A stretch of DNA of 64,000 nucleotides from Cliona cf. orientalis. Lineage: Eukaryota; Porifera; Demospongiae; Clionaida; Clionaidae. The translations under genes and the position numbers were made by a program. The notes under the pieces are model-generated. The model worked only from the letters and a program-made list of their open reading frames with translations. It had not been told where the DNA came from and made no database searches. The stretch covers positions 8,548,980 to 8,612,979 of the forward strand of contig OZ005696.1 of NCBI GenBank assembly GCA_963930775.1. Reading direction: 5' to 3'. Every line of letters begins with the position of its first letter. The first letter of the stretch is position 1. Shown piece after piece: positions 1,581-56,375 of the stretch.

Positions 1581-4500
1581 TCATTTCAGTGCTTGGACTT
1601 GCTCTGCTAGATGTTCAAATCCAACAGTGGGGGACTGGAGGGCCTCAGCTAATGCTGCTAAAGTGGGTTTAGGTTGGACCATCTTCAGCCAAGTCACGAG
1701 CATGGCTCGAAATCGATCGTCGATATCGTCGTTATTACCCTTGATAGTGTCTAACGTTCCTGTATCAATCTCCAGCTCCACACCAATGTTGTACCACTTC
1801 ACCCTGGCTTCCCAAGTGGCTCTCTGAACCTTACGAAGGTCTTTGATGGTAAGTACACCTGTATGTGTGTAAAGGTAGATTATAGTTAAATATAAATTAT
1901 TAAATCTTAGAGACAATTTTTTAAAACTACATACCTGCATCAGATGAGAAAGGTGCATCTTTGCCAAACCAGATCTTGTGTTCTTCAGTCATCTCACTGA
2001 ATACGGAGGCTGGGTGAGTGGTACAGGTCAAAAAGCCACTGCTCGAAATGGTAGCTGCATGCAGTGTGGTGTCTCGGTGCTTGGAACTAGAGCAGAGAAA
2101 AGCTGTATCGGGAATTGAATTGTTATAGTTCAATCGTCGTGAAGCTTTGCGAATTCCAGTGAGGATAGTCTCGCGGATCAATGGGCAGACTTTTTCACAC
2201 ACTTTAAGTGCTTTAACTTGGCTAGTATCGGAAGGAAATTTTATCTCCACATGGAAGAAGGTAGTAAAAGAATCAGTTATCGTGATGAAACCAGGGTTCT
2301 TCCCTGGAACTTTGAAGCGAGCTCTGTTTCGTGACAGCTGGACAGGATTGCCACCCTCCATAAGAAGCTCCCATTTGGAATCTGTGATAAGGGTAGAAAG
2401 AAGACAGCAGTAGACTCCAAGCTTGGGACCATCAAGACCAAAGTAGAAGAGAAGAGAAGCGGCAACCTGAGGGGCTGGGAGTGACAAGGGATGAGGTATG
2501 GCTTCTTCCTCAAGGAGACACGCCATCAGGTACTTACCTTCACCTACCTCAGCAACAATCAGAAGATGCTTGAAAAGCAAAATTAGGTGATCTTCCTCGA
2601 AAAGCTTTGGAATGTAGCCTGATTCAAACTGTGAGAGAATATCGCGTGTGATTATACCACAAAATTCCAATTCTTCGCAACCACGTACACTTCTAGCTGC
2701 TCGAACCTGGGTAGGCAGCTTTGCACGCAGTGTTAAGCTATGCTCTACAAGCTCAGTGATCTTGTCAAGGATGACCTGAGAATTTATGAACACTACCTCT
2801 GGAAGGACCTCACTATAATGCATGATAAGCTTGTGGGCTGTGAGATATTTCAGAGCATCTTCAAAAGATTCTCGTGTGAAGTGGAATTTGGTTGCTTCCT
2901 TGAAGCACTCTTCCTTGCTCAGTATTGCCTTCTCATGGTATTTTGCGATCCGTTTGAAAGCCATCTCCAAAGCAAAGTATCGATGTGGGATTCTGACACG
3001 TTGAAGCTTCTGTAGCTCACGCAACATGAGGTATCTCAAATCAGCAAGGACTGCCTGATCATCATCCCCTGGGCATTTGGCATTGATGGCAAATATTAGC
3101 CTCCGTGATTTTACATCACTAAAGAGAACATGATCCCTCATGTTTGGAGGGATGATGCTGAGCAGCTTTCGTTCCTTTTCTGCTCTGTTCTCGTCCTTGC
3201 ATTCATCTTCAAGATCCTTGTGCGTCCCTATGAAGGCAATCTTAGGGCATTTGCCACTTTCACAAGTCGACTGAAGGACTCGCATGCAGTGGCGAAAGGT
3301 CTGCAGGTGTGTGAAAGGAGATTTGAAAGGCTTTCCAATGGGTTTCCCATTAGTATAATACTCAACTAATGGGTGACTGTCAAGAGGCTCATTGAGCTTC
3401 ACCACGAACATGCCAAACATGGTGTTGGAGACAAAAACTGGAAGTATTTCGTGATACGTTGGCTGCCCACCAGAATCGCCCATGTCAATCACATCCTGGT
3501 CATCCAGTTGACCAGCTGCCTTTGATCCAGCATGCATTCGAACAACAAGCTCTCTCTCTAACCCACTATGCTCTAACTTCTTAGTAATATCAGCGACAGC
3601 AGATACCATGTCTTGCACTGGAGGTAAGATATTGAAGTCTCCAGCTGAGATATGAGCTACAGCTGCTTCATCTCCCTCTAGTCGTCTGGTGTGTGGTTGT
3701 GGCGATCGCTTGCCTCTATGCGATAGTTGTGAATGCTTGGCTGACTCACAGAGCATGTCAGAGTACTGTTGGTCGGTGATCCTGGTAAAGCGAGTCTCAC
3801 CAGCTGTCTCCTTGCTGACGCCAAGCTTGCATTGAGCTACTGCCCTCACTGGATTCTTAACACACTGTGTGCTTTGTCGTACGGGTGGAGGTTTCTCCTT
3901 GAGGAAAGCGTGAAGAACGTGGGTCTTTCCAGAACCTCCAGCCCCCATCAGGAACGAACTACCACTCCGGAAGTTGGACCCTCCCTCCTTCATGGCTTCA
4001 TCAAAGTTGTGCTGTGCTCTTTCACTCACTGTATATATCCATGTATGTATGATTAGTCTGAGTATTTTGTGTATATTTTATGTCATAAACCATGCATATA
4101 CATGTAGCTAGCTAGGCTGTGTGTACTATAGATCATCATGTTCATGTTTATTATACTGACATTACTGCATGTGCATGCCATTCCTCATTCTAAAATGCTT
4201 AGCTATATGTGGGCGAAGCAAGCGTATGCATCTGAAATAAATATATACGCTCGAAGTAATTGTCGACCCTTTACCATATTATATTATTTCTGGAATGTTC
4301 CTATTATGGTGCAGTGGTTACAGCGAAATCCATGCTACAGGATCAATGCATGGCTACAAAATATATATAGCAGTTGGTCAAAAACGTAAAATTAATAGGA
4401 CCATGCACATACGGTATAATTGCCACATACAGACTCTCTCACCCTATATCATGCATATTTCACTTGCTTATACCATAATATGGTGGCGAGTATTAAATTT

Positions 4501-7500
4501 AGCGAAGTGGCTCTCTACTGGTAGCTATTGCCAATGTTTAAATTTGGCGATCTGAATGCTTAATGCCATAGATGCACGTGCATTAAGTTAAATTGGTGAG
4601 TTTTAATTAATTCTGATGATCTATACCAAATCCTGGATCCACATTATGGCATGTACATGCCAGTATATAATATTATAATAAATTATAGTACCCAATCGTA
4701 TGTATGCAATCACTGCATACTGTATTGCTTGTACATGAATGCTTAACCTTAGGATTAACACTTATGTGAGGCGATAGGAAGAAATTATGAAACTACGTCA
4801 AATCTGACCCTGACTACAATAATGTACAGAGGCACACTCCCACTCCCAGGCAGACTGTGTCAGCTCCAGCTTTCAAATTAGCACACACAATAATCAACAA
4901 TGTAACTGGAAAGGTCCCTGTATTATGCTTGGCCATTACAAACCTTACAATGACTGTCACAGACAATGGGTGCATTGGTATTATCCTAATACCTTGAATA
5001 TAAGTGCTCTCCATTGTGTCAGCCTGATGGTCAAGGCGAACACGACGAAGTATCCCAGCAACCTGCCTCCAACTTGGGCAGGGGTGGCCAGTGGTATAGA
5101 GGTCAAGGTACGCTTCTCTCCTCTGGGACGGGCTGTGGAGGTTCCTCTGAATTTCAGCAACCTTAGGACGTGGTAGATCTAGCTCTGCACCTAAACCACT
5201 CACTGCTACAAATAGCTCCACCAGTTTCTCTGTTGTGATGGTAAGATCTGTGGTGACAATAAACCATAATTGTGGCTATTGCTTCAATTAATTTTTAAAA
5301 TTAGTAATCCATAGCAATAAAATTCATAGCATGCAATATAACATACATGATAAATTGTAAATCTATAAATGTGTACACTTGTGCAGCCTACACATACTTA
5401 GCTGTGAGCATGTGTAGTAGTGTCCAGCATCACATTACGTTACACACACACAGAGTTGTAGTAGGTGTGGTCGATGGGCATGATCCACACCTTGCTACAT
5501 TGCTGACCATTACCAGCCTGTGCTTACAAAATTTAATGAACACCACTGGTGCCAAACCCTCGGCACTTTCAGATTCATAATAATGATATTATACTATGCA
5601 GGTAGCTAAAAAGATGATCATATATTAACAACTTCATAAATGGTGGTACAGTAACACAGTGATAATATGCACACTTTGGACACAGCTTGACTGGAGGCAT
5701 GATTTGATTTTTCAACAGACACGGACGCGTCGTCACCAGAAAGGCCTCTGAAAATTGCGAGCTTGATAATGACACACACTTCGCTGGACGAACCATAGAA
5801 GCGTTCGATACAGTAGCTATCCATATGTCCCCGGCCCCTGACCCCGCCCTCGTGCATGCATATGCCGTATTATAGTGCGACACACCCAGTGTTCTATTAA
5901 TACGAAAAGTTAGCTGGCCGGGATCGAAGAAGTCAAGAAGTTTAGAATCAGCAAATGACGCGAAAACTAGCAAACAAAGCGTTCTCTGCGAAATCCACAT
6001 AAATCATGAGTTTGGAACGCCATAAGGAAACCTTATAACATTGCATATTGGACTCGCAAACGAGGTATGTAGCAGTTAGCGTGTTAACAGACAGATGGAG
6101 AGACAGACAGACACACAAAACGACTACCGTAACCCTCGCGTATGCACCGAGGGTTAATAAGGATAGTAACTTTTCACTGTTTCTCATATTTTGATAACAC
6201 TCATGCACCACTCGCTAAGATGCATAAACTTGAAATGTAGTGTAAACAACGACGATAATATACTAATCTGAGTTGTATATAGTAGGTATGGTTGATGGGC
6301 ATGGCAAATCCAAATCAACCATTGTCAAGCCTGTGCTTGATAAGGATAGTAAATTTTCACTTATGTACCACTTGCTAAGATGCATAAGCTAGAAATGTAA
6401 GGTGGACAACAACGATGACAATAGTAAAAGGACAAAACCAATATTATTATTTTATCCTTGCTGGAAAAATAACTTCATCTCACATGGGCAAGCCTATTTT
6501 GTGCACCTAGGCAATAACCATCAAAGCACATACACAAACGCACAGTAGGTATGGGGTGCATAGTTTACCTACTGATAGCCTGGCACTTACCTCTGAGTGG
6601 TAGGAATGGTTTTAGTTTCTCCATAGCAGCAAACTCCCCCCGTCTGTACAGCCGACTGGCAAGATGTGTCCAGGAAGGCTGAGGATGGTAGTGGACATAG
6701 TAGGAGGCACACTCATTGGCTATTTCTCTCTTAGTGGAGCACCTCTCCTGGATCTCAGTGAGTCGGCTGCGAGGGACTACTGTCTTATCATAAGAATAAT
6801 GAGAATTAAGTGAGTCCCAGTCGTTTATCAACTCCATGACTTCAGCCACACTGTTGGTCGTCAAGGCGGGAACTGAAATGGAGAGCATAACTATTAATAT
6901 CCACACAGACTTTAAGAGCATCCACCTACAGACAAATCTCACAAACATGTACAGGCTACATGCATGCATGCAAAGTTAACAGCTGGCATTATGGTGGCAA
7001 TTGGCTGCCTCACCTCAAGACTCTAGATATTTTGTACACCTACTTGAACTCTTATACCGTATAAGTGGAAATTTTTGTTGGACAAAAATTTTGTGAACCT
7101 ATGCCACCTTCGTATTTGCATAAGCAATAAATTTTCACCAATGCGATAAAGGTCACCATATCCTCTATGGAAATAAATCACTGGTAGGGTGATAAATTCT
7201 TTGCCTATGAGAGCAAGTGGTGAAGTTGGTGAAAAGTTTGACCTGTCTACATATATGGTATGTGTATGGTGCTGCACCTTACATTACTGTGATGGTACAC
7301 ATGCCGTGGTATGGCATGAGTGCATGTGTTTTTGCTTGATGTGTGTATGTGTATCTACCTTGGACTGGTTCTCCATAGCTCCTAATACGACTGGCAAGAG
7401 GAGTCTCCCACGCTCCATCAAGAGCAAAGATCACTGCCTTCCATGAGGGCTGGAAGTCACCTTGTCCCTGGAGAAACTCCTCCACAGCTTCCTTGAGGCT

Positions 7501-8064
7501 GCTGCTGACGTTGTTTGTACCAAGCCAACTGGCCACCCCTACCCAGTCCTCCACTCCCTCCAATGCCTTCAAAATGTTTTCCACTGTTAGGGGCGGGGCT
7601 GGTGAGAGAGCATGTATAGGTATTATAGGGTACATCAATTAAAGAATATTGCCATTCATGACGTTTTAGCTTTATCACATGATGGCTACCGCAAAAGTTC
7701 TAATTATAGCGCCACTCTAATGTAAGCGCCATTTGGCATTGGATAATATCATTGTCGTTCTTATTATAGCGCCAAAGTATAGATAGAAATACAAAAACTG
7801 GCGCCTTAAGTAATTTTTTAACGTTCTAATCGGAGCGCCAAGCGCGGTTCTGAATTATTATTTTTTTGGCGCTGTAATTAGAACTTTTACGGTACCCTAA
7901 TTTTAATATTACACACAAACGGACACGCCCACTATGGATTGAGCCTAATCACTCAACTCTCACAGTAGAATTATAGCTATGGTAGTGTGATACATGCATT
8001 AAGTATCATTGATTAGATTTTTACCGCTGTTCAATGCTCCTGCTTCATTGTTTATCTCCGCCAT
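1581..8064 (-). CDS. A1: three death domains, ROC-COR-like GTPase, C-terminal death domain
   Basis: Six exons read on the minus strand: 8064-8025, 7598-7359, 6872-6591, 5247-4993, 4028-1935 and 1858-1581. The summed coding length is 3,189 nt (1,062 aa), every intron is GT-AG and all five introns are phase 1. Exon 1 gives the start MAEINNEAGALN. Exons 2, 3 and 4 each hold one death-domain-like fold (about residues 14-94, 94-188, 188-272), with the typical Trp and a late PSW block such as PCPSWRQVA. Exon 5 begins SERAQ and carries the P-loop GAGGSGKT (about 301-308), a ROC-type G3 motif DSGGQ (457-461) and a G4-like THKD (541-544), followed by COR-like winged-helix segments. Exon 6 is a canonical death domain (971-1062). 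By family, such proteins are intracellular signalling adaptors or GTP-dependent switches, and a role in innate sensing or cell death is inferred. No LRR, kinase or membrane segment is seen. This copy looks intact. Confidence 0.85.
7055..7260. mobile_element. MITE-like insert in intron 2 of gene A, shared by the A copies
   Basis: Between the DD1 and DD2 exons of A1-A5 lies a related segment that begins with a TACCGTATA-type end followed by a GTGGAAATTTT-like block, and ends with the approximate complement (GGCGAAAATTTTCACCTGTCC...ACATATATGGTA). The terminal match is imperfect. Because it is present in all the copies, it was inserted before the array expanded. Confidence 0.5.
7689..7892. mobile_element. 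204-bp MITE in A1 intron 1, TA target site
   Basis: The ends CCGCAAAAGTTCTAATTATA and its near-complement (AATTAGAACTTTTACGG) form terminal inverted repeats. TA flanks both sides (7687-7688 and 7893-7894), which fits a Tc1/mariner-type target site. Internal blocks with GGCGCT/AGCGCC recur. It is absent from intron 1 of the other A copies, so it inserted after duplication. Confidence 0.7.
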
Positions 8065-9284: not shown

Positions 9285-12008
9285 TCAAATCTGGCCCTGA
9301 TTACAATAATATGGAATGTACAGAAGTACTGTGTCAGCTCCAGCTTTCAAATTAACACACACAATAATCAACAATGTAACTGGGAAGGTCCCTGTATTAT
9401 GCTTGGCCATTACAAACCTTACAATGACTGTCACAGATAATGGGTGCATTGGTATTATCCTAGTACCTTGAACGTAAGTGCTCTCCACTGTGGCAGCCTG
9501 ATGGTGAAGGCCAACACCACGGAGTACCTCAGCAACCTGCCTCCAACTTGGGCAGGGATGGCCAGCGGCATAGAGGTCAAGGTTGACTTCTCTCCTCTGG
9601 GAGGGGCTGTGGAGGTTCCTTGTCATTTCAACAATCTTAGACACTGGTAGATCTAACCAATCGAATAGAAAGTCTACATACATATCATCCATTATTGCAA
9701 ATAGCTCCACCAGTTTCTCTGTTGTGATAGTGAGATCTGTGTTGATAATAAACCACAACGTTAATGTTGTGTCTATTGCTTTAATTAGTCTTTGAATAAT
9801 TAATTACTAGCTATCCATAATAATAGTAATACTTGCAACAAAATTCACAGCATGCAATACATGGTAAACTCTAAATCTAAACGTGTGCACTTGTGCAGCC
9901 CAGCCATCATACACATACTTAGCTGTGAGCATGTGTAGTAATGTCCAGCTTCACATTACACACATACAGAGTTGTAGTAGGTGTGGTCATGGGCATGGCA
10001 AAATTAAAATCCACACCTTGTTACATTGCTGTCATTACCAGCCTGTGCTTACAAAATTTAATAAGGATAGTAACTTTTACTGTTCCTGACATTTTGACAA
10101 CACTCATGCACCACTCGCTAAGATGCATAAAACTTGAAATGTAACATGGACAACAACGATGACGGCAGTAAAAGGATATTATTTTATCCTTGCAGGAAAA
10201 ATAACTTCATCTCACATGGGTAAGCCTATTTTGAGCACCTAGGCAATAACCATCAAAGCACATACACAAACACACAGTAGGTATGGGGTACATAGTTTAC
10301 TTACTGATAGCCTGGCACTTACCTCTGAGTGGTAGGAATGGTTTTAATTTCTCCACAGCAGCAAACTCCACTCGTCTGTACAGCCAACTGGCAAGATGTG
10401 TCCAGGAAGGCTGAGGATGGCAGTGGACATAGTAGGAGGCATACTCATTGGCTATTTCTCTCTTAGTGGAGCACCTCTGCTGGATCTCAGTGAGTCGGCT
10501 AACAGGGACTACTATCTTAACAAAAGAAGAAGGAGAATCAAGTGAGTCCCATTTGTTCACCAACTCCATGACTTCAGCCACACTGTCGGTCGTCAAGGTG
10601 GGGTCTGAAATGGAGAGCATAGCTATTAATATCCACACAGACTTTAAGAACATCCACCTACAGACAAATCTCACAAACATGTACAGGCTACATGCATGTG
10701 TGCAAAATTTAGCAGCTATCATTGTTAGTGGCCACAACACAAACGGTTGAAATTGGCTGCCTCACCTCAAGACTCTAGGTATTCTGTACACCTGCTTAAT
10801 TGAACTCTTATACGGTATACATGGAAATTTTGTCGTTGGACAAAAATTTGTGAACTCATGCTACCTTCGTATTGCATAAAAATAATTATTTTGATGCAAT
10901 AAATTCTTATCGATATGGTAAAGATCACCATATCCTCTACATAATAGTTAGACACTATTTAGGAGGTTTCTACGTGATTTAGTAGACAGAAGGGCTCTGT
11001 GTAGAATCCCGAGCGAAGCGAGGGTTCTACTGAGCCCTGAGGTCTTCTAAATCACGTAGAAACCGACTAAACAGTGTCTAACTACTTTAGATCCTAGCAA
11101 CAATGCCCAACAGCTTTGTATATAAACAACTGCCTAGCAATAAACTAGCCATAGGCAAGCAAAATTTACCAGGTTTTTTATGGAGCTTACAAGGTTTTTT
11201 ATGGGGCTTACAAGGTTTTTTATGAAGGATAGATACTGCAGTTCAACCAATCAGATCACTGTATTTGTTACAAGTAGGATCTAAAAAATCATAAAAAATT
11301 AACCGGTAGTGTGATAAAATTTTCGCCTATGAGAGCAAGTGGTGAAATTGGCAAAAATTTTCGCCTATCCACATATACAGTATGTGTATGGTGCTGCACC
11401 CTACACTACTGTGATGGTACACATGCCGTGGTATGGCGTGAGTACAATGTATATGTATTTTTGCTTGATGTGTGTATGTCTATCTACCTTGGACTGGTTC
11501 TCCATAGCTCCTAATACAATTAGCAACAGGAGTCTCCTCTGCCAAATCAAGAACAAAGATCACTGCCCTCCATGAGGGCTGGAAGCGACCTTGTCCCTGG
11601 AGAAACTGCTCCACAGCTTCCTTGAGGCTGCTGCTCCTGCCGAGGGTACCAAGCAGCTGCAGGGCCACCATTTCCCAGTCCTTCACTCCCCCCAATGCCT
11701 TCAAAATGTTTTCCACCGTTAGGGGCGGGGCTGGTGAGAGAGCATAAAGGCATATTTTAGGGTACATCAAATTAAAGAAGATTGCCATTCATGACGTTTT
11801 AGTGTTTATATCATGATATATGGCTACCATATTAAAATTATTCCACACAAACGGACACGCCCACTACGGATTGAGATTATGTTACATCAATATCATTCAA
11901 CTCGGACATTAGAATCATGGCTATGGTAGTGTGGCACATGCATTAAGCATCATTGACTAGATTTTTACCTCTGTTCAATGCTCCAGCTTCATTGTTTATC
12001 TCCGCCAT
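9285..12008 (-). CDS. A2: 5' half copy encoding only three death domains
   Basis: Exons 12008-11969 (MAEINNEAGALN), 11730-11488 (DD1), 10604-10323 (DD2) and 9736-9467 (DD3) match gene A, with phase-1 junctions and GT-AG borders. The ROC-COR exon and the last death-domain exon are absent because of the deletion junction near 8738. If the exon-4 donor is not used, the frame stays open to a stop at 9285, giving a predicted 338-aa protein with a hydrophobic tail (LSVTVIVRFVMAK and PVTLLIIVCVNL). That tail is intron sequence in the full-length genes, so it may be meaningless. It could act as a death-domain-only adaptor or decoy, or be a dead copy. All four exons are free of stops and the promoter-proximal AAGATGGCGGAG is kept. 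Confidence 0.55.
10945..11284. mobile_element. Foldback element in A2 intron 2
   Basis: The palindromic part (10945-11084) has ends TAGTTAGACACT and AGTGTCTAACTA and internal arms around CTACGTGATTTAG. It is followed by AT-rich sequence with three copies of a TTACAAGGTTTTTTATG-like unit, ending at GGATCTAAA. A3, A4 and A5 lack it at the same intron position. A relative of the palindrome is at 58148-58293. Confidence 0.65.
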
Positions 12009-15004: not shown

Positions 15005-16658
15005 TCAGTGGTGGTGGTGTGGGCAGGAGTGAGTATGTCCCTGGTGATTATGACTCCTGGGCTTTGGTGGTTCATACCAGGAAGGCATCAGTTCTGGTCT
15101 CTCAGTTCTCTTGGCTTCAACTGTATCCTGTAATAAAAAGTAGGAATTTCATAGTTTAGGTTAGCTAACTTTGGATTTTCATAAAAAGTAGGTATAATAT
15201 TATACCAAAAGTGCAACTGCAGATCGACAATAGTTACTGTATTTGCCTAATTCAACAGAACATCTAAGGCACCTAAAACATTTAGGAGGCTATTGCAGTC
15301 ATTACCTTAGATACGGTGAAGCCTTTCTCGATGTTCAGTTGTGCATAGCCCACTTTCACTGCAATTCGATGGTTAGTTTCAACGTTGATTGTTACGTCCA
15401 GCACCAGCCTTCCCTTGGGCAGAGGAGGGAGACCACTCAGAACAACTTCACCAAGAAATGCAGCATCTTCACGCACACCTCCTTGCTCTCCCGTCTCATA
15501 CACTTCAAAAACAACCGTCGTTTGGTCATCTACGCTAGTGGTGAACTGCCTAGTCACTCTCGCAGGGCAGGGCAGGTTTTGCTGCAGTACAGTCTTGACA
15601 CTACCGTCTATGACCTTGACACCAAACGCAAAATTTGTGGCCGATAAAATGACGAAATCTTCGAATCGTTTGTTCCTATCCCCACCCAAGAGTGCGGCGT
15701 AGACAGCTGCACCTCGAACAGCAGCTGTGGACGGATCAGCAATAATCATAGGGAACACCCCAACAAAGAGATTACAAAGAGCTTTTTGAATTTCGGGAAG
15801 AATCGGTGACCCCCCACTGAGCAAGATTTGGTCAATTTTCTCTTGCGCTTGTATCTGAATACTTCTGACACATTTTTCTAAACTCTGAAAATTGCCTGAA
15901 CTAAACTCCTTCTGAGTGTCAGGTGTGAGGGGATAGCCATATGAAGAACGGACTTCGTAGATCGTATCGTCTATCGTGATGCAGCAAATATCAACGAACC
16001 CAGCACCAACGTTGATGACAATGACATTCACTGCATCTTTGCTCTCAGTCTCAAATCCGTGAGCAACTGCAGCCGCCCACGCCTTGTTAATAAATCGTTT
16101 CACTTTAATCCCAGCCGCATCACAAAGCTGTGTGATACGCACTCGATCCATGAAGCCAAAACAAGCAGGTACAGTTGCAACAGCCTCCTTGACGGGAACT
16201 CCTAGGTGCACGTCAACATTCTCGACAACCTTTCGAAGCACCATTGACAGTAACTCTTCTGGTTTGTAGAGCTTGCTGCTGTTGGATGATTTAGCGGCAG
16301 GAATGCTGACTGCAGCAAGCCCATCTTGATCAGCTGCTATTTCAAAAGGCCAGTTCCCTCTCTCGCTAATTATTACAGGTTCGTCTGGCTTCCTCCCCAG
16401 CAGCTTCTTTAGCCCATACACAGGGTGACAGAGGTTTCTTTGCGCCAGATCATAGGCATGTCGACCTAAGACAGTGGCTGAGCGAGCCAAACTGTCCGCG
16501 GACTCTGATTGGAGGTTGAAGCCCACAAAGGCGGGAGTAGAGTCGTTACCCAGTTCGTCCTTGATCAGCTCCACTCGACTGTCGCTGAAAATGGCAGCTC
16601 GCAGGTTGAACGTGCCCAAGTCCAAGCCGATCACTGCTGGCGGACTGGACAAAGCCAT
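15005..16658 (-). CDS. C1: mini-Hsp70 lacking subdomain IIB and lid, His-rich tail
   Basis: Exon 1 is 16658-15306 (451 codons) and exon 2 is 15127-15005 (40 codons plus stop); the junction is AAG|GTAATG...ATTACAG|GATACA, phase 0, giving 491 aa. The N-terminus (VIGLDLGTFNLR, VYGLKKLLGRK, VATVPACFGFMDR) is clearly an Hsp70 ATPase domain. The stretch between DTIYEVRSS and KIDQILLSGGS is about 37 residues where canonical Hsc70 has about 107, so subdomain IIB is gone. The phosphate-2 motif DLGGGTFD is altered to NVGAGFVD, and the INEP motif reads INKA. The beta-sandwich substrate domain is present (LSGLPPLPKGRLVLDVTI), the helical lid is absent, and exon 2 supplies a tail ending HNHQGHTHSCPHHHH. 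It is probably a non-cycling peptide or client binder, by inference. It lies downstream of A3 on the same strand and converges with B1. Confidence 0.85.
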
Positions 16659-17469: not shown

Positions 17470-20290
17470 TCATTTCAGTGCTAGAACTTGCTTTGCTAGA
17501 CGTCCAAATCCAACAGTGGGGGACTGGAGGGCCTCAGCTAATGCTGCTAAAGTGGGTTTAGGTTGAATCTTCTTCAACCAAGTGGTCAGCATCTCTCTAA
17601 AACAATCGTTAGTCTTAGCATTGTCTTTTTTGATGACATCCAGTGTTCCGGGATCGATACTGAGTTTCAAGCCGATGTTGTACCACTCCTCCCTTGAGTC
17701 CCACGCAGCATCTTGAATCATACTAAGATCTTTGATGGTACATGTAAGTATACCTGTATATGACAGTGTGTAGAATGTAATGATTATAATCTATCATTAT
17801 CAAGAGTGCATTAGGAAAAGTACATAGCTAACTGCGTGGACGAGCAAGCTCTATGCTGTGAGATGGTGGGGTCGTCCTACATGTGCCAGCCCAGCCATAG
17901 ATGTGTTTCGTTTACACAGTGATTATACTCGTGGATGTGTGGTTGCAGATGTGCTGCACAGCATCTACTTAAGAACTATAATACCCATTACTGCCCCCCC
18001 CCCCCCCCCCCAGTATTATTGTGGCCACACAGTTTTTTTACAAAAATAATATACTTTGCCTAGTATTTAATACGAGCTGTGACGCCATCATCACAGAATA
18101 ATATATCGCTATGTAATAGTTAGGAGGGAAGCTCCAATATAGAGTACACAATGTACATACCTGCATCTTTGCCGAACCAGATCTTGTGTTCTTCGGTCAT
18201 CTCACTGAATACGGAGCCTGGGTGAGTGGTACAGGTCAAAAGGTCACTGCTAGAAATGGTGGCTGCATGCAGTGTGGTGTCTCGGTGCTCGGCACTAGAG
18301 CAGAGAAAAGCTGTATTGGGGATCGAATTTTCGTAGTTCAATCGTCGTGACGCTTTGCGAATTCCAGTGAGGACAGTCTCGCGGATCAATGGGCAGACCT
18401 TTTTACACACTTCAAGTGCTTTAGCTTGGCTAATACTGGGAGGAATTTTGATTTCAACTTGGAAGAAGGTAGTGAAAGAATCAGTTATCGTGATGAAACC
18501 AGGGTGGTTTCCTGGAATAGTGAAGCGAGCGCTATTTCGCGACAGCTGGACAGGATTGCCACCCTCCATAAGAAGCTTCCAATTGAACTCAGTGATAAGA
18601 GCAGAAAGAAGACAGCAGTAGACTCCGAGTTTGGGACCATCTTCACTAAAATAGAAGAGGAGAGAAGCAGCAACTTGAAGGGCTGGGAGTGACAAGGGAT
18701 GAGGTATGGCTTCTTCCTCAAGGAGACACGCCATCAGGTACTTACCTTCACCTACCTCAGCAACAATCAGAAGATGCTGGAAAAGCAAGATCAGGTGATC
18801 TTCCTCGAAAAGCTTTGGAATGTAGCCTGATTCAAACTGTGAAAGAATATCACGTGTGATTATACCACATAACTTAAACTCTCAAGAACCACGTATACTT
18901 CTGGCTGCTTGAACCTGGGTAGGCAGCTTTGCACGCAGTGTTAAGCTATGCTCTACAAGCTCTGTGATCTTGTCAAGGACGACCTGAGAATTTATGAACA
19001 CTACCTCTGGAAGGACCTCACTATAATGCATGACAAGCTTGTGGGCTGTGAGGTATTTCAGAGCATCTTCAAAAGATTCTCGTGTGAAGTGGAATTTGGT
19101 TGCTTCCTTGAAGCACTCTTCCTTGCTCAGTATTGCCTTCTTTTGGTACTTTGCAAACCGTTTGAAAGCCATCTCCAAAGCAAAGTATCGATGTGGGATT
19201 CTAACACGTTGGAGCCTCTGAAGCTCACGCAACATGAGGTATCTCAAATCAGCAAGGACTGCCTGATCATCATCCCCTGGGCATTTGGCATTGATGGCAA
19301 ATATGAGCCGCTGTGACTCTGCATCACAAAAGATGACATGATCCATCATGTTTGGAGGGATGATGCTGAGCAGCTTTCGTTCTTTTTCTGCTCTGTCCTC
19401 GTCCTTGCACTGATGTTCAAGATCCTTGTGTGTCCCTATGAAGGCAATCTTAGGACATTTGCCACTTTCACAAGTCGACTGAAGGACTCGCATGCAGTGG
19501 CGAAAGGTCTGCAGGTGTGTGAAAGGAGATTTGAAAGGCTTTCCAATGGGTTTCCCATTAGTATAATACTCAACTAATGGGTGACTGTCAAGAGGCTCGT
19601 TGAGCTTCACCACGAGCATGCCAAACATGGTGTTGGAGACAAAAACTGGAAGTATTTCGTGATACGTTGGCTGCCCACCAGAATCAGCCATGTCAATCAC
19701 ATCCTGGTCATCCAGTTGACCAACTGCCTTTGATCCAGCATGCATTCGAACAACAAGCTCTCTCTCTAACCCACTATGCTCTAATCGTATCACCTTTCGA
19801 CTAGTGGAGGCTGATTCTACCCACTGTACTGGAGGTAAAACATTGAAATCTCCAGCTGAGATATGAGCTACAGCTGCTTCATCTCCCTCTAGTCGTCTGG
19901 TGTGTGGTTGTGGTGATCGCTTGCCTCTATGCGACAGTTGCGAATGCTTGGCTGACTCACAGAGCATGTCAGAGTACTGTTGGTCGGTGATCCTGGTAAA
20001 GCGAGTCTCACCAGCTGTCTCCTTGCTGACGCCAAGCTTGCATTGAGCTACTGCCCTCACTGGATTCTTAACACACTGTGTGCTTTGTCGTACGGGTGGA
20101 GGTTTCTCCTTGAGGAAAGCATGAAGAACGTGGGTCTTCCCAGACCCTCCAGCCCCCATCAGGAACGAACTACCACTCCGGAAGTTGGACCCTCCCTCCT
20201 TCATGGCTTCATCAAAGTTGTGCTGCGCCCTTTCACTCACTGTATATATCCATGCATAAAGTGAAACATTAATATCTAAACTCTGTGTAT

Positions 20291-22492: not shown

Positions 22493-23366
22493 CGGTATAT
22501 CACTTGCCTACACCATATTATGTAATCTTAAATTTAGCAAAATGGCTCTCTACTGTTAGCTATTGGCGAGGCTTAAATTTGGCGATCTGAATGCTTACCG
22601 CCGTACATGTAGGTGCGCGTGCATCAAGTTAACTCAGCGAGTTTTAATTAAATTTTGGTGATCTATACCAAATCCTGGATCCACATTATGGCATGTACAT
22701 GTACATAATAATTATAGTACCCAATCATAATTATTATGCATACAATCACTGCACACTGTACTGCTTGTACGTGAATGCTTAACCATGGGATTGACACTTA
22801 CATGAGGCGATAGAAAGAAATTAAGAAACTATGTTAAATCTGGCCCTGATTACAATAATATGGAACATACAGAGGTACACTCCCACTCCCAGGCAGACTG
22901 TATCAGCTCCAGCTTTCAAATTAGCACACACAATAATCAACTGTGTAACTGGTAAGGTCTATGTATTATGCTTGGCCACTATAAACCTTACAATGACTGC
23001 CACAGACAATGGGTACATTGGTATTATCCTAGTACCTTGAACATAAGTCCTCTCCACTGTGCCAGCCTGATGGCGAAGGCCAACACCACGGAGTGCCACA
23101 GCAACCTGCCTCCAACTTGGGCAGGGGTGGCCAGTGACATAGAGGTCAAGGTACGCTTCTCTCCTCTGGGAGGGGCTGCGGAGGTTCCTCTGCATTTCAG
23201 CAACCTTAGACTCTAGTAGATCTAATTGTTTATCTAACTCGCCACCAATAACTACTACATCATCAATAAGTCCCACGTACTCATCTTCCATGGTTGCAAA
23301 CAGCTCCACCAGTTTCTCTGTTGTGATAGTGAGATCTGTGTAGTAATGTCCAGCATCACATTACAC

Positions 23367-24093
23367 CAGGAGCGCATAATGAGAAGAGGAGGGAGAGGGG
23401 AGGAGCGTGACACGACCACGCACTTAATTAAAATTCAAGTTTTTACCCACGCTAGTCGTGTTACTATATTTAGCACGTTTATTTCAAGATGAAAGCAGAG
23501 AATCTTGGAGTTCCACTTGTACAACAAGGCTTTGGGAGCCTTTCCGTGGATCTGAGATCACGTTGAAGCTTACCGACGTCCAAAGAACAGACCTGTTTTT
23601 GTGGAAGCCTTGAGATCGTCTGTATTAAAGTTGTACTTCTCGCCGCACCGGTTCAGCCGTTCACACCGATCGGCCAGAAATGATGCTTGATGGTCAATCC
23701 TAGTAGCTTTGACTACTCTAAGCTCTCTTTCAAGGGACCCAAGGGTCGAGGCTATGCTAGAAGAACGATCAAGCATCATTTCTGGCAGATCGACGCGAAT
23801 GGCTAAATCGCGGGGCTAGAAAAACTTACAGGCGATCTCAAGGCTCCATAAAAAGCTTTAGGTCTGTTCTTTGGACTTCGGTAAGCTTCAATACGATCTC
23901 AGATCCACGGAAAGGCTCCCAAAGCCTTATCATTTGGCCGTACAAGTCGAAACTCCAAGCTTCTCTGCTGTCTTAAAAATAACATGCTAAATTTAGTAAC
24001 GCGACTAGCGTGGGTAAAAACTTGAATTTTAATTAAGTGCGTGGTCGTGTCACGCTCCTCCCCTCTCCCTCCTCTTCTCATTATGCGCTCCTG
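23367..24093. mobile_element. 727-bp near-palindromic element, 7-bp target duplication
   Basis: The ends are CAGGAGCGCATAATGAGAAG and the exact complement, flanked by ATTACAC on both sides (23360-23366 and 24094-24100). The arms extend almost to the centre (GGTCTGTTCTTTGGAC and complement; GCATCATTTCTGGC and complement). A4 and A5 show the empty site (CACATTACACACATAC). It is a long foldback without coding capacity. The 7-8 bp target duplication is compatible with a hAT-like origin, but the family is not proven. Confidence 0.8.
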
Positions 24094-25775
24094 ATTACAC
24101 ACATACAGAGTTGTAGTAGGTGTGGTCATGATCAATGGGCATGACAAATTAAAATCCATACCTTGTTACATTGCTGGCCATTACTAGCCTATACTTACAA
24201 ATTTAATAAGGATAGTAACTTTCACTGTTCCTGGCATTTTTAAAACACTCATACACCACTCACTAAGATGCATAAAACTTGAAATGTAGGGGGGATAACA
24301 ACGATGACAACAGTAAAAGGACAAAACCAATATTATTTTATCCTTGCTGGAAGAATAATTTCATCTCACATGGGCAAGCCTATTTTGTGCACTAGGCAAT
24401 AACCATCAAAGCACATACACAAACACACAGTAGGTATGGGGTACATAGTTTACTTACTGATAGCCTGGCACTTACCTCTGAGTGGTAGGAATGGTTTTAA
24501 TTTCTCCACAGCAGCAAACTCCCCCTTACTGTACAGATGACTGGCAAGATGTGTCCAAGAAGGATGAGGATGGCAGTGGACATAGTAGGAGGCACACTCG
24601 TTGGCTATTTCTCTCTTAGTGGAGCACCTCTGCTGGATCTCAGTGAGTCGGCTGGGAGGGACTACTGTCTTAGTAATATAAAGAGAATTAAGTGAGTCCC
24701 AGTCGTTCACCAACTCCATGACTTCAGCCACACTGTCGGTCGTCAAGGTGGGGTCTGAAATGGAGAGCATAGCTATTAATATCCACACAGACTTTAAGAG
24801 CATCCACCTACAGACAAATCTCACAAACATGTACAGGCTACATGCATGTATGCAAAATTTAGCAGCTATCATTGTAGTGGCCACAACATAAATGGTTGAA
24901 ATTGGCTGCCTCACCTCAAGATTCTAGGTATCTACTTGAACTCTTATACATGTACGGTATACGTGAAAATTTTGTCGTCGGCCAAAAATTTTGTTACCTT
25001 CGTATTGCATAAAAATAATTTTTTGATGTAATAAATTCTTGCCCATGTGGTAAAGGTTGCCGTATCCTCTATGCAATCATAAAAAATAGTGATGATATTT
25101 TTGCCTACGAGAGCAAATTTAATGGTGAAATTGGCGAAAATTTTCACCTGTCCGCACATATGGTATGTGTATTGTGCTGCACCCTACACTACTGTGATGG
25201 TACACATGCCGTGGTATGGCATGAGTGTGTGTATTTTTGCTTGATGTGTGTATGTGTATCTACCTTGGACTGGTTCTCCATAGCTCCTAATATGACTGGC
25301 AAGATGAGTCTCCCCTGCCATATCAAGAGCAAAGTTCACTGCCCTCCATGAGGGCTGGTAGTGACCTTGTCCCTGGAGAAACTTCTCCACAGCTTCCTTG
25401 AGGCTGCTGCTGAGGCTGCCGCTGTATGTACCAAGCCAATGGGCCACCGCTCTCCAGTTCTTCACTCCCTCCAATGCCTTCAAAATGTTTTCCACCGTTA
25501 GAGGCGGGGCTGGTGAGAGAGCATAAAGACATATTTTAGGGTACATCAAATTTCCATTCAAGACGTTTTAGTGTTTATATCATGGCTACCATATTAAAAT
25601 AATACTATGCCACACAAATGGACACGCCCACTACGGATTGAGATTACGTTACATCAATATCATTCAACTCGGACATTAGAGTTATGGCTATGGTAGTGTG
25701 ACACATGCACTAAGCATCATTGATTAGATTTCTACCTCTGTTCAGTGCTCCGGCTTCATTGTTTATCTCCGCCAT

Positions 25776-28459: not shown

Positions 28460-30099
28460 TCAGTGGTGTGGGCAGGAGTGAGTATGTCCCTGGTGATTAT
28501 GACTCTTAAGCTTTGGTGGTTCATACCAGGAGGGCATCAGTTCTGGCCTCTCGGTTCTCTTGGCTTCAACTGCGTCCTATAAAAAGAGGAATTTCATAGT
28601 TTTGGTTAGCTAACTTTTGTCTTTAGGTACATGTATATTATACCAAAAGTGCAACTGCAGATCAATAACCGTATTTGCCTAACTCAACAGAGGATCTAAG
28701 GCACCTAAAACACTTAGGAGGCTATTGCAGTCATTACCTTAGATACGGTGAAGCTTTTCTCCATGTTCAGTTGTGCATAGCCCACTTTCACTGCAATTCG
28801 ATGGTTAGTTTCGACGTTGATTGTTACGTCCAGCACCAGCCTTCCCTTGGGCAGGGGAGGTAGACCACTCAAAACAACTTCACCAAGAAATGCAGCATCT
28901 TCACGCACACCTCCTTGCTCTCCCGTCTCATACACTTCAAAAACAACCGTCGTTTGGTCGTCTACGCTAGTGATGAACTGCCTAGTCACTCTCGCAGGGC
29001 AGGGCAGGTTTTGCTGTAGTACAGTCTTGACACTACCGTCTATGACCTTGACACCAAGCGCAAAATTTGTGGCCGATAAAATGATGAAATCTTCTAATCG
29101 TTTGTTCCTATCTCCACCCAAGAGTGCGGCGTAGACAGCTGCACCTCGAACAGCAGCTGTGGATGGATCGGCAATAATCACAGGGGCCACCCCAACAAAG
29201 ATATTATTACAAAAAGCTCTTTGAATTTTGGGAAGAATCAGTGACCCCCCACTGAGCAAAATTTGGTCGATTTTCACTTGTGCTTGTATCTGAACGCTTC
29301 TGATGCATTTTTCTAAGATCTGAAAATTGCCTGAACTAAACTCCTTCTGAGTGTTGGGTGTGAGGGGATAGCCATATGAAGAACGGACTTCGTAGATCGT
29401 ATCGTCTATCGTGATGCAGCAAATATCAACGAACCCAGCACCAACGTTGATGACAATGACATTCACTGCATCTTTGCTCTCAGTCTCAAATCCGTGAGCA
29501 ACTGCAGCCGCCCACGCCTCATTAATAAATCGTTTCACTTTAATCCCGGCCGCATCGCAAAGCTGTGTGATACGCACTCGATCCATGAAGCCAAAACAAG
29601 CGGGTACAGTTGCAACAGCCTCCTTGACGGGAACTCCTAGGTGCACATCAACATTCTCGACCACCTTTCGAAGCACCATTGACAGTAACTCTTCTGGTTT
29701 GTAGAGCTTGCTGCTGCTGGATGATTTAGTGGCAGGAATGCTGACTGCAGCAAGCTTAAGCCCATCTTGATCAGCTGCTACTTCAAAAGGCCAGTTCCCT
29801 CTCTCACTAATAATTACAGGGTCGTCTGGCTTCCTCCCCAGCAGCTTCTTTAGCCCATACACGGGGTGACAGAGGTTTCTTTGAGCCAGATCATAGGCAT
29901 GTCGACCTAGGACGGTGGCTGAGCGAGCCAAGTTGTCCGCGGACTCTGATTGGAGGTTGAAGCCAACAAAGGCGGGAGTGGAGTCGTTGCCAAGTTCGTC
30001 CTTGATCAGTTCAACTCGATTGTCACGGAAAACGGCAGAACGCAGATTGTGTGTGCCCAAATCCAAACCGATTGCTGTAGGTGGACTGGACGAGGCCAT
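28460..30099 (-). CDS. C2: mini-Hsp70 with His-rich tail
   Basis: Exon 1 is 30099-28738 (454 codons, start MASSSPPTAIGLDLG) and exon 2 is 28576-28460 (38 codons plus stop), giving 492 aa. An upstream in-frame start at 30150 would add 17 residues; the lower start matches C1 and C3. It shares with C1 the loss of subdomain IIB, the altered NVGAGFVD motif and the missing lid. Unlike C1 it keeps Glu in the INEA motif, the counterpart of Hsc70 Glu175. The tail ends HNHQGHTHSCPHH, two histidines shorter than in C1. Exon 2 is separated from exon 1 by about 160 bp with GT-AG borders. It is downstream of A4 on the same strand, tail to tail with B2. Confidence 0.85.
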
Positions 30100-33300: not shown

Positions 33301-36300
33301 ATGTATGTCATAATACTACTTTACTACAAAGTAGAATGCTGTAAGTACAAAATTATTGTATTCTACTGGATCCATATTATGGAATGTACATGTACCACCG
33401 TAGAATCATAATATGATTATCCCCCCTTCCTTTGTGCATGCTAGCACTGGGCAAAACTGGGGAGGGGGTTCAGTGTATCGACCGTCAAATACCATGTAGA
33501 CGTGTGTAGGAACTTAAGCTAAAAGTGCAGGGTGGGCTTATGCACGAGGGGGGGGGGGCGTAATTGCGAGATTCTACAATAATTACAATATCCCTTCATA
33601 TGCATGCCATCAATGCACATATTGTACTGCTTGTATGTAAATGCTTAACCTTGGGATTGAGAACAATTAAGAAACTATCACAAATCTGACCCTGATTACA
33701 ATAAATTATATGAAATATACAGAGGTACACTCCCACTCCCAGGCAGACTGTGTCAGCTCCAGCTTTCAAATTTGCACACACAATAATAATCAACAATGTA
33801 ACTGGGAAGGTCCCTGTACATGTATTATGCTTGGCCATTACAAACCTTACAATGACCGTCACAGACAATGGGTGCATTGGTATTATCCTAGTACCTTCAA
33901 CATAAGTGCTCTCCACTGTGTCAGCCAGGTAGACCTAACTGGTTATCTAGCTCGTTATCACCATCAGCAAATATTCTACGACCAAATCCCACATACACAT
34001 TATCACTGCACATACTGTACTGCTTGTATGTGAATGCTTATCCTTAGGATTGAGGATTATGTGAGGCAATAGAAAAAATTAAGAAATAATGTTAAATCTG
34101 GCCCTGACTATGATAATATGGAACGTACAAGGTACACTCCCACTCCTAGGCAGACTGCGTCAGCTCCAACTTTCTAATTAACACACACAATAATCAACAA
34201 TGTAACTGGGAAGGTCCCTGTATTATGCTAGGCCATTACAACCTTACAATGACCGTCACAGATAATGGGTGCATTGGTATTATCCTAGTACCTTGAACAT
34301 AAGTGCTCTCCACTGTGTCAGCCTGATGGTGAAGGCCAACAAAAAGGAGTGCCTTGGCAACCTGCCTCCAACTTGGGCAAGGGTAGCCAGTGGCATAGAG
34401 GTCAAGGTACGCTTCTCTCCTCTGGGAGGGACTGTGGAGGTTCCTCTGCATTTCAGCAACCTTAGACTCTGGTAGATCTAACAGTTCATCTAGCTCATAA
34501 CCAAGTCCCACATACATATCATCCATTGTTGCAAACAGCTCCACCAGTTTCTCTGTTGTGATAGTGAGATCTGTGTTGATAACAAACCACAATGTTAATG
34601 TTGTGTCTATTGCTTTAATTAGTCTTTGAATAATTAATTACTAGCTATCCATAAAATTAATAGTAATACTTGCAACAAAATTCACAGCAAGTAATACATG
34701 GTAAACTGTAAATCTAAACGTGTGCACTTGTGCAGCCCAGCCATCATACACATACTTAGCTGTGAGCATGTGTAGTAATGTCCAGCATCACATTACACAC
34801 ATACAGAGTTGTAGTAGGTGTGGTCGATGGGCATGATAAAATAAAAATCCACACCTTGTTACATTTCTGGCCATTACCAGCCTGTGCTTACAAAATTTAA
34901 TAAGGATAGTAACTTTTCACTGTTCCTGACATTTGACAACACTCATGCACTACTCACTAAGATGCATAAAATTTGAAATGTAGCATGGACAACAATGATG
35001 ACGACAGTAAACAAGGACAAAATCAATTATTTTATCCTTGCTGGAAAAATAATTTCATCTCACATGGGCAAGCCTATTTTGAGCACCTAGGCAGTAACCA
35101 TCAAAGCACATACACAAACACACAGTAGGCATGGGGTACATGGTTTACTTACTGATAGCCTGGCACTTAGGCCCCTCCAAATCAATTAGTAGTTTCTCAT
35201 CCCCCTTAATTTCCGCCCGCATGCATTTTGTGATTAGGAGCACAATGCAAAAGTATACCGCCTCCTTTTTTGCAAGCGATTTTGACGACCATTTCCATCA
35301 AAAACTAGAGCTCTGTAGAGCACATACCCCGCGCGCTCTGTAGCCACTGCAGCATAGTAGTGCACACTTCGCGGCAGAGCTGTTTTATGACCTGACGACC
35401 CTTTCCAACACTGTGCTTGAGCATGCGCAGTCGCATCAGCATGCTAAAAGAGTGGGTGTGGTCGATAAACCACAGGCATGTTGAACAGAAAATGCACAAT
35501 TTGTAGCGCTAGTAAGGCTTTTTGAGCAATTCGAAGCCTGTACAAAGCAGTTTTTCACCGATATCTATCGATTGGTTGTGCTTACATCACTTACAGACGC
35601 CTAGAACTCGAGATCTGGCGATTTTCGTGCCGACGACAACGACAACGACGACAACGACAACAGACGGACAAACCGATTGCTTTACCCCTTGCGCATGCGC
35701 GCGGGGTAATTACATATATTGACGACCATTACCACCGCCCACCCGCATCAATTTTGAGCTCAGAGGGGATGAGAAACTACAAATTGATTTGGAGGGGCCT
35801 TACCTCTGAGTGGTAGGAATGATTTTAATTTCTCCACAGCAGCAAACTCCCCCTCTCTGTACAGCTGAGTGGCAAGATGTGTCCAGGAAGGCTGAGGATG
35901 GCAGTGGACATAGTAGGAGGCACACTCATTGGCTATTTCTCTCTTAGTGGAGCACCTCTGCTGGATCTCAGTGAGTCGGCTGTGAGGGACTATTGTTCTA
36001 ATATAATAATCCGAAATAAGTGAGTCCCATTTGTTCATCAGCTCCATGACATCAGCCACACTGTCAGTCGTCAAGGTGGGGTCTGAAATGGAGAGCATAG
36101 CTATTAATATCCACACAGACTTTAAGAGCATCCACCTACAGATAAATCTCACAAACATGTACAGGCTACATACATGTATGCAAAATTTAGCAGCTATATA
36201 TCATTGTAGAGGCTACAACACAAACGGTTGAAATTGGCTGCCTCACCTCAAGACTCTAGGTATCTATTTGAACTCTTATACAGTATACGTGGAAATTTTA

Positions 36301-37072
36301 TCGTTGGACAAAAAGCTATGTGAACCTATGCTTCCTTCGTATTGCAATTATTTTGATGTAATAAATTTTTGCCAATGCGGTAAAGATCACCGTATCCTCT
36401 ATGCAATCATAAAGAATTACCAGCATTGTGATGAAATAATTGCAATGGTAAAATTGATGAAAATTTTCGCCTGTCCACATATATGGCATGTGTATGGTGC
36501 TGCACCCTACACTACTGTGATGGTACACATGCCGTGGTATGGCATGAGTGTATGTTTTTTTGCTTGATGTGTGTATGTGTATCTACCTTGGACTGGTTCT
36601 CCATAGCTCCTAATACGACCGGCAACGTGAGTCTCCTCTGCCCCATCAAGAGCAAAGATCACTGCCCTCCATGAGGGCTGGAAGTGACCTCGTCCCTGGA
36701 GAAACCGCTCCACAGCTTCCTTGAGGCTGCTGTCGATGTAGTGTGCACCAAGCCAATCGGCCACCCCTCCCCAGTCCTCCACTCCCTCCAATGCCTTCAA
36801 AATATTTCCCACTATTAGGGGCGGGGCTGGTGAGAGAGCATAAAGGTATATTTTAAGGCACATCAAAGTTAAGAAGATTGCCATTCATGACGTTTTCATG
36901 GCTACCATATTAATATACACAAACGGACACGCCCACATGCACTATGCATTGTACATCAATATCGAGCCTATAATAAATCATTCAACTCAGACAGTACAAC
37001 TAACGCTATGAGTGTGACACATTCATTAATACCTCTGTTCAGTTCTCCTGCTTCATTGTTTATCTCCGCCAT
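30303..37072 (-). CDS. A4: three death domains, ROC-COR-like GTPase, C-terminal death domain
   Basis: Exons: 37072-37033, 36826-36587, 36082-35804, 34570-34292, 32762-30669 and 30580-30303. The coding length is 3,210 nt (1,069 aa), with all introns phase 1 and no stop. The P-loop GAGGSGKT, G3 DSGGQ and G4 THKD are conserved. Segments of exon 5 differ from A1 and A5 but match A3 and A6 (SQEFKL in place of CEELEF), which points to mosaic exchange. Intron 4 contains a partial duplicate of exon 4 and its flank (33600-33990). An inserted element abuts the exon-3 donor (35170-35799), changing it from GTAAGTG to GTAAGGC. This looks like an intact copy. Confidence 0.85.
33399..33580. mobile_element. 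CCGTAGAATC-ended MITE in A4 intron 4
   Basis: The ends CCGTAGAATC and GATTCTAC are inverted, with CCCCCC and GGGGGG subterminal runs and a GCATGCTAGCACTGGGCAAAA block that recurs in the larger element at 56376-57202. The right end lacks the final GG. Confidence 0.6.
33896..33990 (-). pseudogene. Partial duplicate of the DD3 exon in A4 intron 4
   Basis: The 3' end of a DD3 exon (donor at 33895) is joined directly to its variable 5' part, so the conserved SPSQRREAYLDLY...PSWRQVA core is missing. Flanking intron sequence (33600-33890) also repeats 34020-34290. It is a failed tandem duplication inside the intron and is not expected to be spliced productively. Confidence 0.65.
35170..35799. mobile_element. 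PIF/Harbinger-like MITE, TTA target, at the A4 exon-3 donor
   Basis: The terminal inverted repeats GGCCCCTCCAAATCAATT / AATTGATTTGGAGGGGCC are flanked by TTA on both sides (35167-35169, 35800-35802), the classical target of PIF/Harbinger elements. No transposase remains. It is interrupted by the repeat at 35301-35710. Its right end lies four bases into the intron after A4 exon 3. Confidence 0.8.
35301..35710. mobile_element. Repeat family AAAACTAGAGCTC...GGGGTAAT, copy 2 (nested)
   Basis: It is inserted in the Harbinger-like MITE; TTGACGACCATT occurs on both sides of it, as part of the host MITE or a duplication. It shares both ends with 21081-21546. A GACAACGAC-type triplet repeat lies near its right end. 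Confidence 0.65.
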
Positions 37073-39881: not shown

Positions 39882-40252
39882 CTGCAGAAAGTGAAGGATG
39901 AGATATAAGTCAAAACAGGAAGGACTACCAATATTATTATAGTGCGATTTTCCGCCCTAGTTACTGCATCATAGGAAATTTGGAAAAACAGCTCTAAAAT
40001 TTTGGCAATTTGTGCACTACACTACACAACTTATGTCAAGAGTACAAGAATATATGCATGTGCAACACCTTAGGTGCTGTGGATTTATCAAATTCTCAAC
40101 AAACCTTACAGCTAAAATAACACTATAATTATTGTCAACTGATCTCTCTCCCCCCCCCCTCTCTCCCTCTCCCTCTCATCTTCCACTCTATATCAACTTA
40201 CAATTCGTAAAAATTCACCACCACCTGCTTCCGATTTTCAGTTTCAGTTTTC
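39882..40252. other. Gap between K and the chimeric relic
   Basis: Nothing is supported beyond a CT-rich tract near 40140-40185. If K has further 5' exons they are not recognisable here. Confidence 0.4.
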
Positions 40253-56370: not shown

Positions 56371-56375
56371 AACTA

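Follow-up and report, generated by a model that had tools for sequence, protein, structure and literature searches.

The locus described here raises the question of whether short hypervariable patches in the death domains of a tandem gene family reflect diversifying selection on a surface of interaction with other proteins. The window analyzed is a stretch of 64,000 nucleotides (nt) from the sponge Cliona cf. orientalis (GenBank assembly GCA_963930775.1, contig OZ005696.1, positions 8,548,980 to 8,612,979), whose minus strand carries the family as copies A1 to A5 plus a partial sixth copy, A6. A complete gene consists of a 40-nt exon 1 (MAEINNEAG..), three exons for predicted death-fold domains (DD1, DD2 and DD3), an exon of about 2.1 kb for a putative nucleoside triphosphatase (NTPase) and a last exon for the domain DD4, with phase 1 at all internal exon boundaries. 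From five copies at a single locus in a single haplotype, we hold with moderate confidence that the probable explanation is diversifying selection on the docking specificity of the death domains, which precede a conserved switch and a conserved output domain.

In A1 (all coordinates refer to the window; family genes lie on the minus strand), exon edges and reading frame place exon 1 (ATG; MAEINNEAGALNS) at 8025-8064. The DD1 exon of 240 nt, phase 1-1, lies at 7359-7598 with AG/GT edges and contains the patch TNNVSSS (7498-7518). Edges and frame likewise define the DD2 exon (282 nt, 6591-6872) and the DD3 exon (255 nt, 4993-5247), with the aligned patches NSHYSYDKTVVPR (6769-6807) and VAVSGLGAE (5183-5209), respectively. 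The NTPase exon (1935-4028; P-loop GAGGSGKT, DSGGQ, GTHKD) and the DD4 exon with the stop codon (1581-1858) served as conserved controls. The first-pass annotation of this DNA had reported hypervariable in-frame loops at 4993-7598, whose limits coincide exactly with the 3' edge of the A1 DD3 exon and the 5' edge of the A1 DD1 exon, and the five DD1 patches and two DD2 patches that it quoted were also exact.

Patch Divergence Exceeds Intron Divergence

Nucleotide divergence over the 10 pairs of copies was 0.30, 0.39 and 0.36 in the patches of DD1, DD2 and DD3, and 0.11, 0.07 and 0.10 in the rest of the respective exons. Pairwise divergence of introns I2 and I3 was 0.04-0.17, except for the four A3 pairs in I3 (0.20-0.23), an intron in which A3 carries an insertion. 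Values for I1 spread from 0.05 to 0.32, and its alignment was poor because of inserted elements. Thus, the earlier description of the flanking introns as close held, inserted elements aside, for I2 and I3 but not for I1.

Pairwise counts over copies are mutually dependent. We also used a tree-free measure, namely the minimum count of changes at each gap-free codon over the five copies. Patch codons had a mean of 2.63 minimal changes (27 codons) and non-patch exon codons 0.66 (227 codons), while intron triplets had 0.65 after masking of stretches where local mismatch was >45% (which left 264 of the 350 triplets) and 0.96 when unmasked (350 triplets). At least three changes were found in 17 of the 27 patch codons, compared with 14 of the 264 masked (p 1e-12) and 40 of the 350 unmasked intron triplets (p 3e-9). 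Patch substitution was therefore about 2.7 (unmasked introns) to 4 times (masked introns) the intron level, so that relaxed constraint alone is insufficient to account for it. Non-patch codons were near the intron mean but less even (variance/mean 1.54 vs 1.19), and those with at least four changes (7/227, vs 2/264 in introns) were in borderline excess (p 0.056). Among variable gap-free codon columns, 96 were amino-acid-changing and 22 synonymous only.

Codon Models Favor Positive Selection in DD1-DD3 and Not in the Control Exons

Comparison of the site models M2a and M1a over 280 aligned codon columns of DD1-DD3 gave twice the log-likelihood difference (2dlnL) of 129.8, with omega2 (dN/dS of the selected class) of 10.9 at 22% of sites. 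Removal of the patches (228 columns left) gave 2dlnL of 76.0 and omega2 of 12.4 at 14% of sites, and three alternative alignments from which gap-adjacent codons had been dropped gave 2dlnL of 85-99. Without patches, DD1 gave 41.3 and DD2 19.0 as single exons. Nineteen non-patch codons had a posterior >0.9 for omega>1, which does not agree with the first-pass statement that the death domains are nearly identical outside one short patch each. No positive selection was found among A1 and A3-A6 in the NTPase (2dlnL 0.2, omega 0.32, with the A3 stop codon entered as missing data) or in DD4 (2dlnL 1.0, omega 0.56).

The nearest copies differed by intron (A2-A3 in I1, A3-A4 in I2, A2-A4 in I3). Because the copies therefore look like mosaics, neutral data were simulated with a tree changing every 15 codons; these simulations drew from 8 or 5 of 15 trees, whereas the real data draw from all 15. 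For 228 codons, the recombining neutral null reached at most 18.3 in 24 runs, nine of which passed the nominal 5% line; a partly constrained recombining null reached 11.9 in 16 runs, and the null for 75-codon exons 12.3 in 24 runs. Since such nulls often pass the nominal 5% line, p-values taken at face value are too low. The pooled DD1-DD3 signal, as well as DD1 and DD2 without patches, exceeded the recombining nulls.

When the patches shared the synonymous rate of the rest, their omega was 7.3. In gap-free columns, omega was 4.7 for the DD2 patch (12 codons, 2dlnL 8.1 vs omega=1) and 4.6 for the DD1 patch (7 codons, 2dlnL 2.9). A patch dN/dS above 1, the test that the first-pass annotation had set beforehand, was thus clearly obtained for DD2 and suggestively for DD1, while the DD3 patch changes fast without dN/dS significance.

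Indels in the Patches

We counted 29 indels in 978 aligned nt of patch over the 10 pairs, i.e., 3.0 per 100 nt (1.9, 2.7 and 3.8 in DD1, DD2 and DD3); the patch alignments were protein-guided, so that these gaps are in frame by construction. In introns, 12,516 aligned nt contained 276 indels no longer than 60 nt (2.2 per 100 nt), and 80 of these indels were multiples of three. In-frame indels were thus about 4.6 times denser in patches than in introns (3.0 vs 0.64 per 100 nt), and the excess is confined to this class, overall density being like that of introns. A raised total indel density in patches was accordingly rejected, and indel number is no argument alone.

The lengths of all 15 DD1-DD3 exons are divisible by three, and those of the DD3 exons (255, 270, 300, 279 and 294 nt in A1-A5) were as first reported. 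Multiples of three are, however, expected of any working symmetric (phase 1-1) coding exon; therefore they do not prove selection, and we rejected them as a sign of it. The two refuting checks named in the first-pass annotation gave divided results, and its reading of diversifying selection is supported in part, with site models and null simulations of substitutions carrying more weight than the indels.

Domain Identity and Position of the Variable Sites

AlphaFold models of the A4 copy had six helices for DD3 (predicted local distance difference test [pLDDT] score 80.9, from an alignment of 20 sequences, all from the window) and five for DD1 (pLDDT 85.5), in which the patch sits where the third helix would be expected. 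Foldseek placed Fas/FADD at the top of 153 matches for DD3, where 19 of the first 20 were death-domain structures, and at the top of 60 matches for DD1, where the first 13 all were. Template modeling (TM) scores were mostly 0.5-0.6 for both, and lower matches also contained CARDs, PYDs and unrelated helical proteins. DD2 matched DD3 in profile comparison (E 4e-8), while the match of DD1 to DD3 was weak (E 5.5e-4, probability 30, 43 columns). The models therefore suggest that DD1 and DD3 resemble death folds, with weak E-values.

DD4 matched Pfam Death (PF00531) at 26.7-29.1 bits (cut-off 22.6) in the four copies scanned (A1, A4, A5 and A6; E 1.1e-6 in A1). In A1, A4 and A5, the NTPase exon scored 20.9-22.2 bits for Ras (cut-off 21.6), above the cut-off in two of the three copies and just under it in A1 (E 2.9e-4), and 15.5-16.1 bits for Roc, below the cut-off of 27 in all three. 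AAA_16 and AAA_22 were further sub-threshold Pfam matches, and the order of motifs in the sequence is GAGGSGKT, DSGGQ, THKD. No sequence match to the NTPase was found in the PDB at E <= 0.1, the last 358 residues encoded by the A1 NTPase exon, where a COR domain would be expected, gave no Pfam match of any kind, and no NACHT or LRR match was obtained in the exons scanned. The predicted protein begins with three death-fold domains, continues with a Ras/Roc-like NTPase and ends in a death domain.

The first-pass annotation had placed all three patches between the second and third helices and had proposed structure prediction to locate them. In the A4 model, the DD1 patch (residues 27-33) does lie in the loop after helix 2 (H2), between helices at 18-25 and 34-42, and the DD2 patch lies probably between H2 and H3, by homology to DD3 only. 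The DD3 patch (A4 residues 13-29), in contrast, takes in the H1 end, H2 and the loop that joins them. Thirteen DD1 sites had a posterior >0.9: three of eight residues in H2, three of eight in the loop after it, one in the next helix, two in the H4-H5 loop, and one each at the H5 end, in the H5-H6 loop, in H6 and before H1. In DD3 such sites numbered two at the H1 end, three of seven residues in H2, two in H3, three of ten at the H5 end, one in H6 and none of 13 in H4, with four further sites in inserted columns that A4 lacks. At several sites the residue differs among most copies, as in EQKRD, SQHDR and RWHQH.

According to the part of the published account drawn on here, contacts in helical assemblies are of three types: type I pairs the H1/H4 side of one domain with the H2/H3 side of its neighbor, type II pairs H4 plus the H4-H5 loop with H6 plus the H5-H6 loop, and type III pairs H3 with the loops H1-H2 and H3-H4 (PMC7156525). 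Eleven of 37 residues in H2, H3 and the H2-H3 loop had a posterior >0.9, vs 3 of 43 in H1 and H4 (p 0.008, post hoc; DD1 and DD3 only, with the third DD1 helix taken as H4 and the four inserted DD3 columns omitted). In the models, most of the variable sites appear to lie on the H2/H3 side or close to the H5-H6 loop, with H1 and H4 largely conserved. Judged from predicted helices and published interface definitions, these sites would form an exposed binding face.

Proposed Mechanism and Alternative Explanations

Under diversifying selection on docking specificity, DD1-DD3 would have diversified at similar places of the death fold, namely in helix 2, in the H2-H3 region (for DD3, from the H1 end to H2), at the end of helix 5 and in loops close by, while the NTPase and DD4 would have been kept under purifying selection. 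These places would belong to docking faces in helical assemblies (H2/H3 for type I, loops for type III, the H5-H6 loop for type II), and altered faces would retune the partner choice of each paralogue, the partner being perhaps an adaptor specific to that paralogue, perhaps a pathogen protein that changes. The shared output would be carried by the conserved NTPase, as a switch, and DD4. On this reading binding specificity may have changed among copies, and the family may have an immune role.

Several results weigh against it. The proportion of non-patch codons showing three or more changes (16/227) was not significantly above that in introns (p 0.27). In DD3, the patch has the highest synonymous divergence (pS 0.41) and an omega of 1.8 in gap-free columns (8 codons, 2dlnL 0.5) that is not significantly >1, and without the patch its 2dlnL of 10.9 falls within the single-exon recombining null. 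When the patch rate was left free, patches took a 3.3-fold rate and an omega of only 2.7, with a better log-likelihood (lnL -2340.5) than under equal rates (-2345.9). As for the fold itself, no Foldseek match reached E <= 0.001 (best E 0.14 for DD3 and 0.25 for DD1), and Pfam gave no death-family match in the six of 15 exons scanned (DD1 and DD3 of A1 and A5, DD2 of A1 and A4).

The raised patch rate would also be expected from local turnover, that is, conversion with diverged donors or a locally high mutation rate without strong selection on binding. The mosaic look of the copies and the raised patch pS in all three domains (0.145 and 0.21 in DD1 and DD2, and the DD3 value above, vs 0.094, 0.064 and 0.129 in the rest) favor it as well. 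Even with the rate free, however, omega=1 fits 6.2 log-likelihood units worse (lnL -2346.7) than omega 2.7, and single selected codons are dispersed in helices, unlike short tracts; blastn of the exons against the window also found no further patch copy, which is weak evidence for such short stretches. We therefore regard local turnover as unlikely. Drift of the patches as unimportant loops at the neutral rate, with the frame kept, would explain an indel density near that of introns, and frame retention is expected of any coding exon, but the excess of patch substitutions over introns and the 19 selected-looking codons outside the patches already disfavored this explanation, which we consider improbable. 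That the array consists largely of pseudogenes and varies by degeneration finds some footing in A2, which lacks NTPase and DD4, in the in-frame stop of A3, and in A6, whose DD1-DD3 part is down to a 41-nt scrap of DD3. We rejected it as very improbable, given that all 15 DD1-DD3 exons are open with AG/GT edges, that the NTPase is constrained, and that the open copies A1, A4 and A5 alone still show a patch divergence of 0.351 vs 0.097 in the rest (I2/I3 0.08-0.14, I1 0.29).

Diversifying selection on docking may also have taken a form that involves no pathogen, in which each paralogue was tuned once to its own partner and pathways were kept from crossing. Most copies differ from one another at several sites, as mutual insulation would give, and with one sequence per copy this form is inseparable from an arms race; we hold it to be quite possible, somewhat short of an even chance, and compatible with the preferred reading. 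The data fit an arms race with a partner that changes as well as insulation of the paralogues from one another.

A more speculative extension, which we put forward as rather doubtful, is that the family is a recognition repertoire of death domains, in which the three tandem folds would compose a gene-variable docking code read by the conserved GTPase-death-domain switch, with mix-and-match splicing. Because all phases are 1-1, A2 exons could in principle splice onto the A1 switch.

Other Copies and Neighboring Genes

A1, A4 and A5 have every part, with open frames. Exon 1 and DD1-DD3 are present in A2 (9467-12008), and no NTPase or DD4 match was found between A2 DD3 and the start of A1. Its DD1 exon (11488-11730) carries the patch TLGRSSS (11627-11647), its DD2 exon (10323-10604) DSPSSFVKIVVPV (10501-10539) and its DD3 exon (9467-9736) AIMDDMYVDFLFDW (9657-9698); the patches of this and the following copies were delimited by alignment. 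In A3, the DD1 exon (25264-25509) carries TYSGSLSSS (25403-25429), the DD2 exon (24476-24754) NSLYITKTVVPP (24654-24689) and the DD3 exon (23036-23335) a patch of 24 codons (23226-23297), and the NTPase exon (18161-20239) is interrupted by the in-frame stop at its codon 452. A4, the copy modeled for DD1 and DD3, has DD1 at 36587-36826 with AHYIDSS (36726-36746), DD2 at 35804-36082 with ISDYYIRTIVPH (35982-36017) and DD3 at 34292-34570 with ATMDDMYVGLGYELDEL (34482-34532), the model serving beside the alignment for the first and last of these patches. The corresponding A5 exons and patches are DD1 (46904-47143; TYYSSSN, 47043-47063), DD2 (45230-45529; EYSIYNNNPIVDYNGMIPD, 45408-45464) and DD3 (44323-44616; 22 codons, 44513-44578).

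A6 (52906-57549) has open NTPase and DD4 exons, and no upstream death domain was found for it except the DD3 scrap (57509-57549). A 32-nt scrap resembling the latter lies at 33895-33926, inside the A4 intron between DD3 and NTPase. Copy-specific insertions occur in A3 intron 3 (within 23336-24475), A5 intron 2 (within 45530-46903) and intron 1 of A1 and A5, and some have inverted ends by eye, of the type left by small transposable elements. No relatives were found in the viral contigs or genome contigs searched.

HSP70-like genes recur on the minus strand at 15285-16658, 28717-30099, 51418-52634 and 62924-63998. The first, the sole copy scanned, matched Pfam HSP70 (8e-60), and those at 51-52 kb and 63 kb matched in several pieces and appear broken. 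Three of the genes lie about 0.2-0.8 kb downstream of a DD4 stop (A4, A6 and A3), an arrangement that looks as if the putative switch gene and the HSP70-like gene had been duplicated together as a pair. Downstream of A5, in the position where A3, A4 and A6 have the HSP70-like gene, are a protein-kinase open reading frame (ORF; 37454-38425, minus strand; Pkinase 1.9e-22), whose N-terminal part is coiled-coil-looking, and a proline-rich ORF (39010-39909, minus strand) with YEN-type motifs.

Comparison with Known Systems and Significance

DAPK1/ROCO (AP-GTPase) proteins carry a Ras/Roc-like GTPase and, after it, a death domain at the C-terminal end. The family described here appears to share this order and has three extra N-terminal death folds; it gave no kinase, ankyrin or COR match in the exons tested, and Roc was under the Pfam cut-off.

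Sponge NLRDs (DEATH-NACHT-LRR) of Dysidea avara, as presented in the portion of the survey used here, are likewise an expanded animal family with a death domain N-terminal to the NTPase (PMC12909245). They have NACHT and LRR, which had no match here, where three death folds precede and one follows the NTPase. The main text of that survey does not use the term positive selection or any form of the word hypervariable. Amphimedon Death/TRADD-N proteins, with one to three N-terminal Death-like domains, are similar in their lineage expansion and in having several leading Death-like domains followed by other modules (PMC8195603). In the passages of that account considered here, their C-terminus is the variable and often fast-evolving part, whereas in the present family it is the N-terminal death domains that vary, next to a conserved C-terminal part. 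Pfam results for the exons scanned contained no TRADD-N match, although Pfam may miss this domain. Fungal NLRs such as Podospora HNWD, with hypervariable WD, ANK or TPR repeats, are alike in belonging to an NTPase switch family, in exchange among members and in selected interaction-surface positions (PMC4986451). According to the section consulted, the selected part there is the repeat domain, while here it is three death folds N-terminal to the NTPase, and Pfam found no repeats in the family exons tested.

In the immune switch families compared (fungal NLRs and Amphimedon proteins), fast change is thus described, in the parts of the accounts used, for repeats or variable C-termini, whereas here the docking modules appear to be fast-evolving. 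We found no published case of fast-evolving death-domain docking modules in the open-licence literature searched. If the repertoire proposed above were true, the docking surface rather than a repeat sensor would be the diversified determinant of specificity, in an animal without adaptive immunity. If selection has acted on docking, the copies would provide a natural set of near-alike death domains with altered candidate interfaces, and partner choice by death folds, a question of long standing, would become directly testable by patch swaps.

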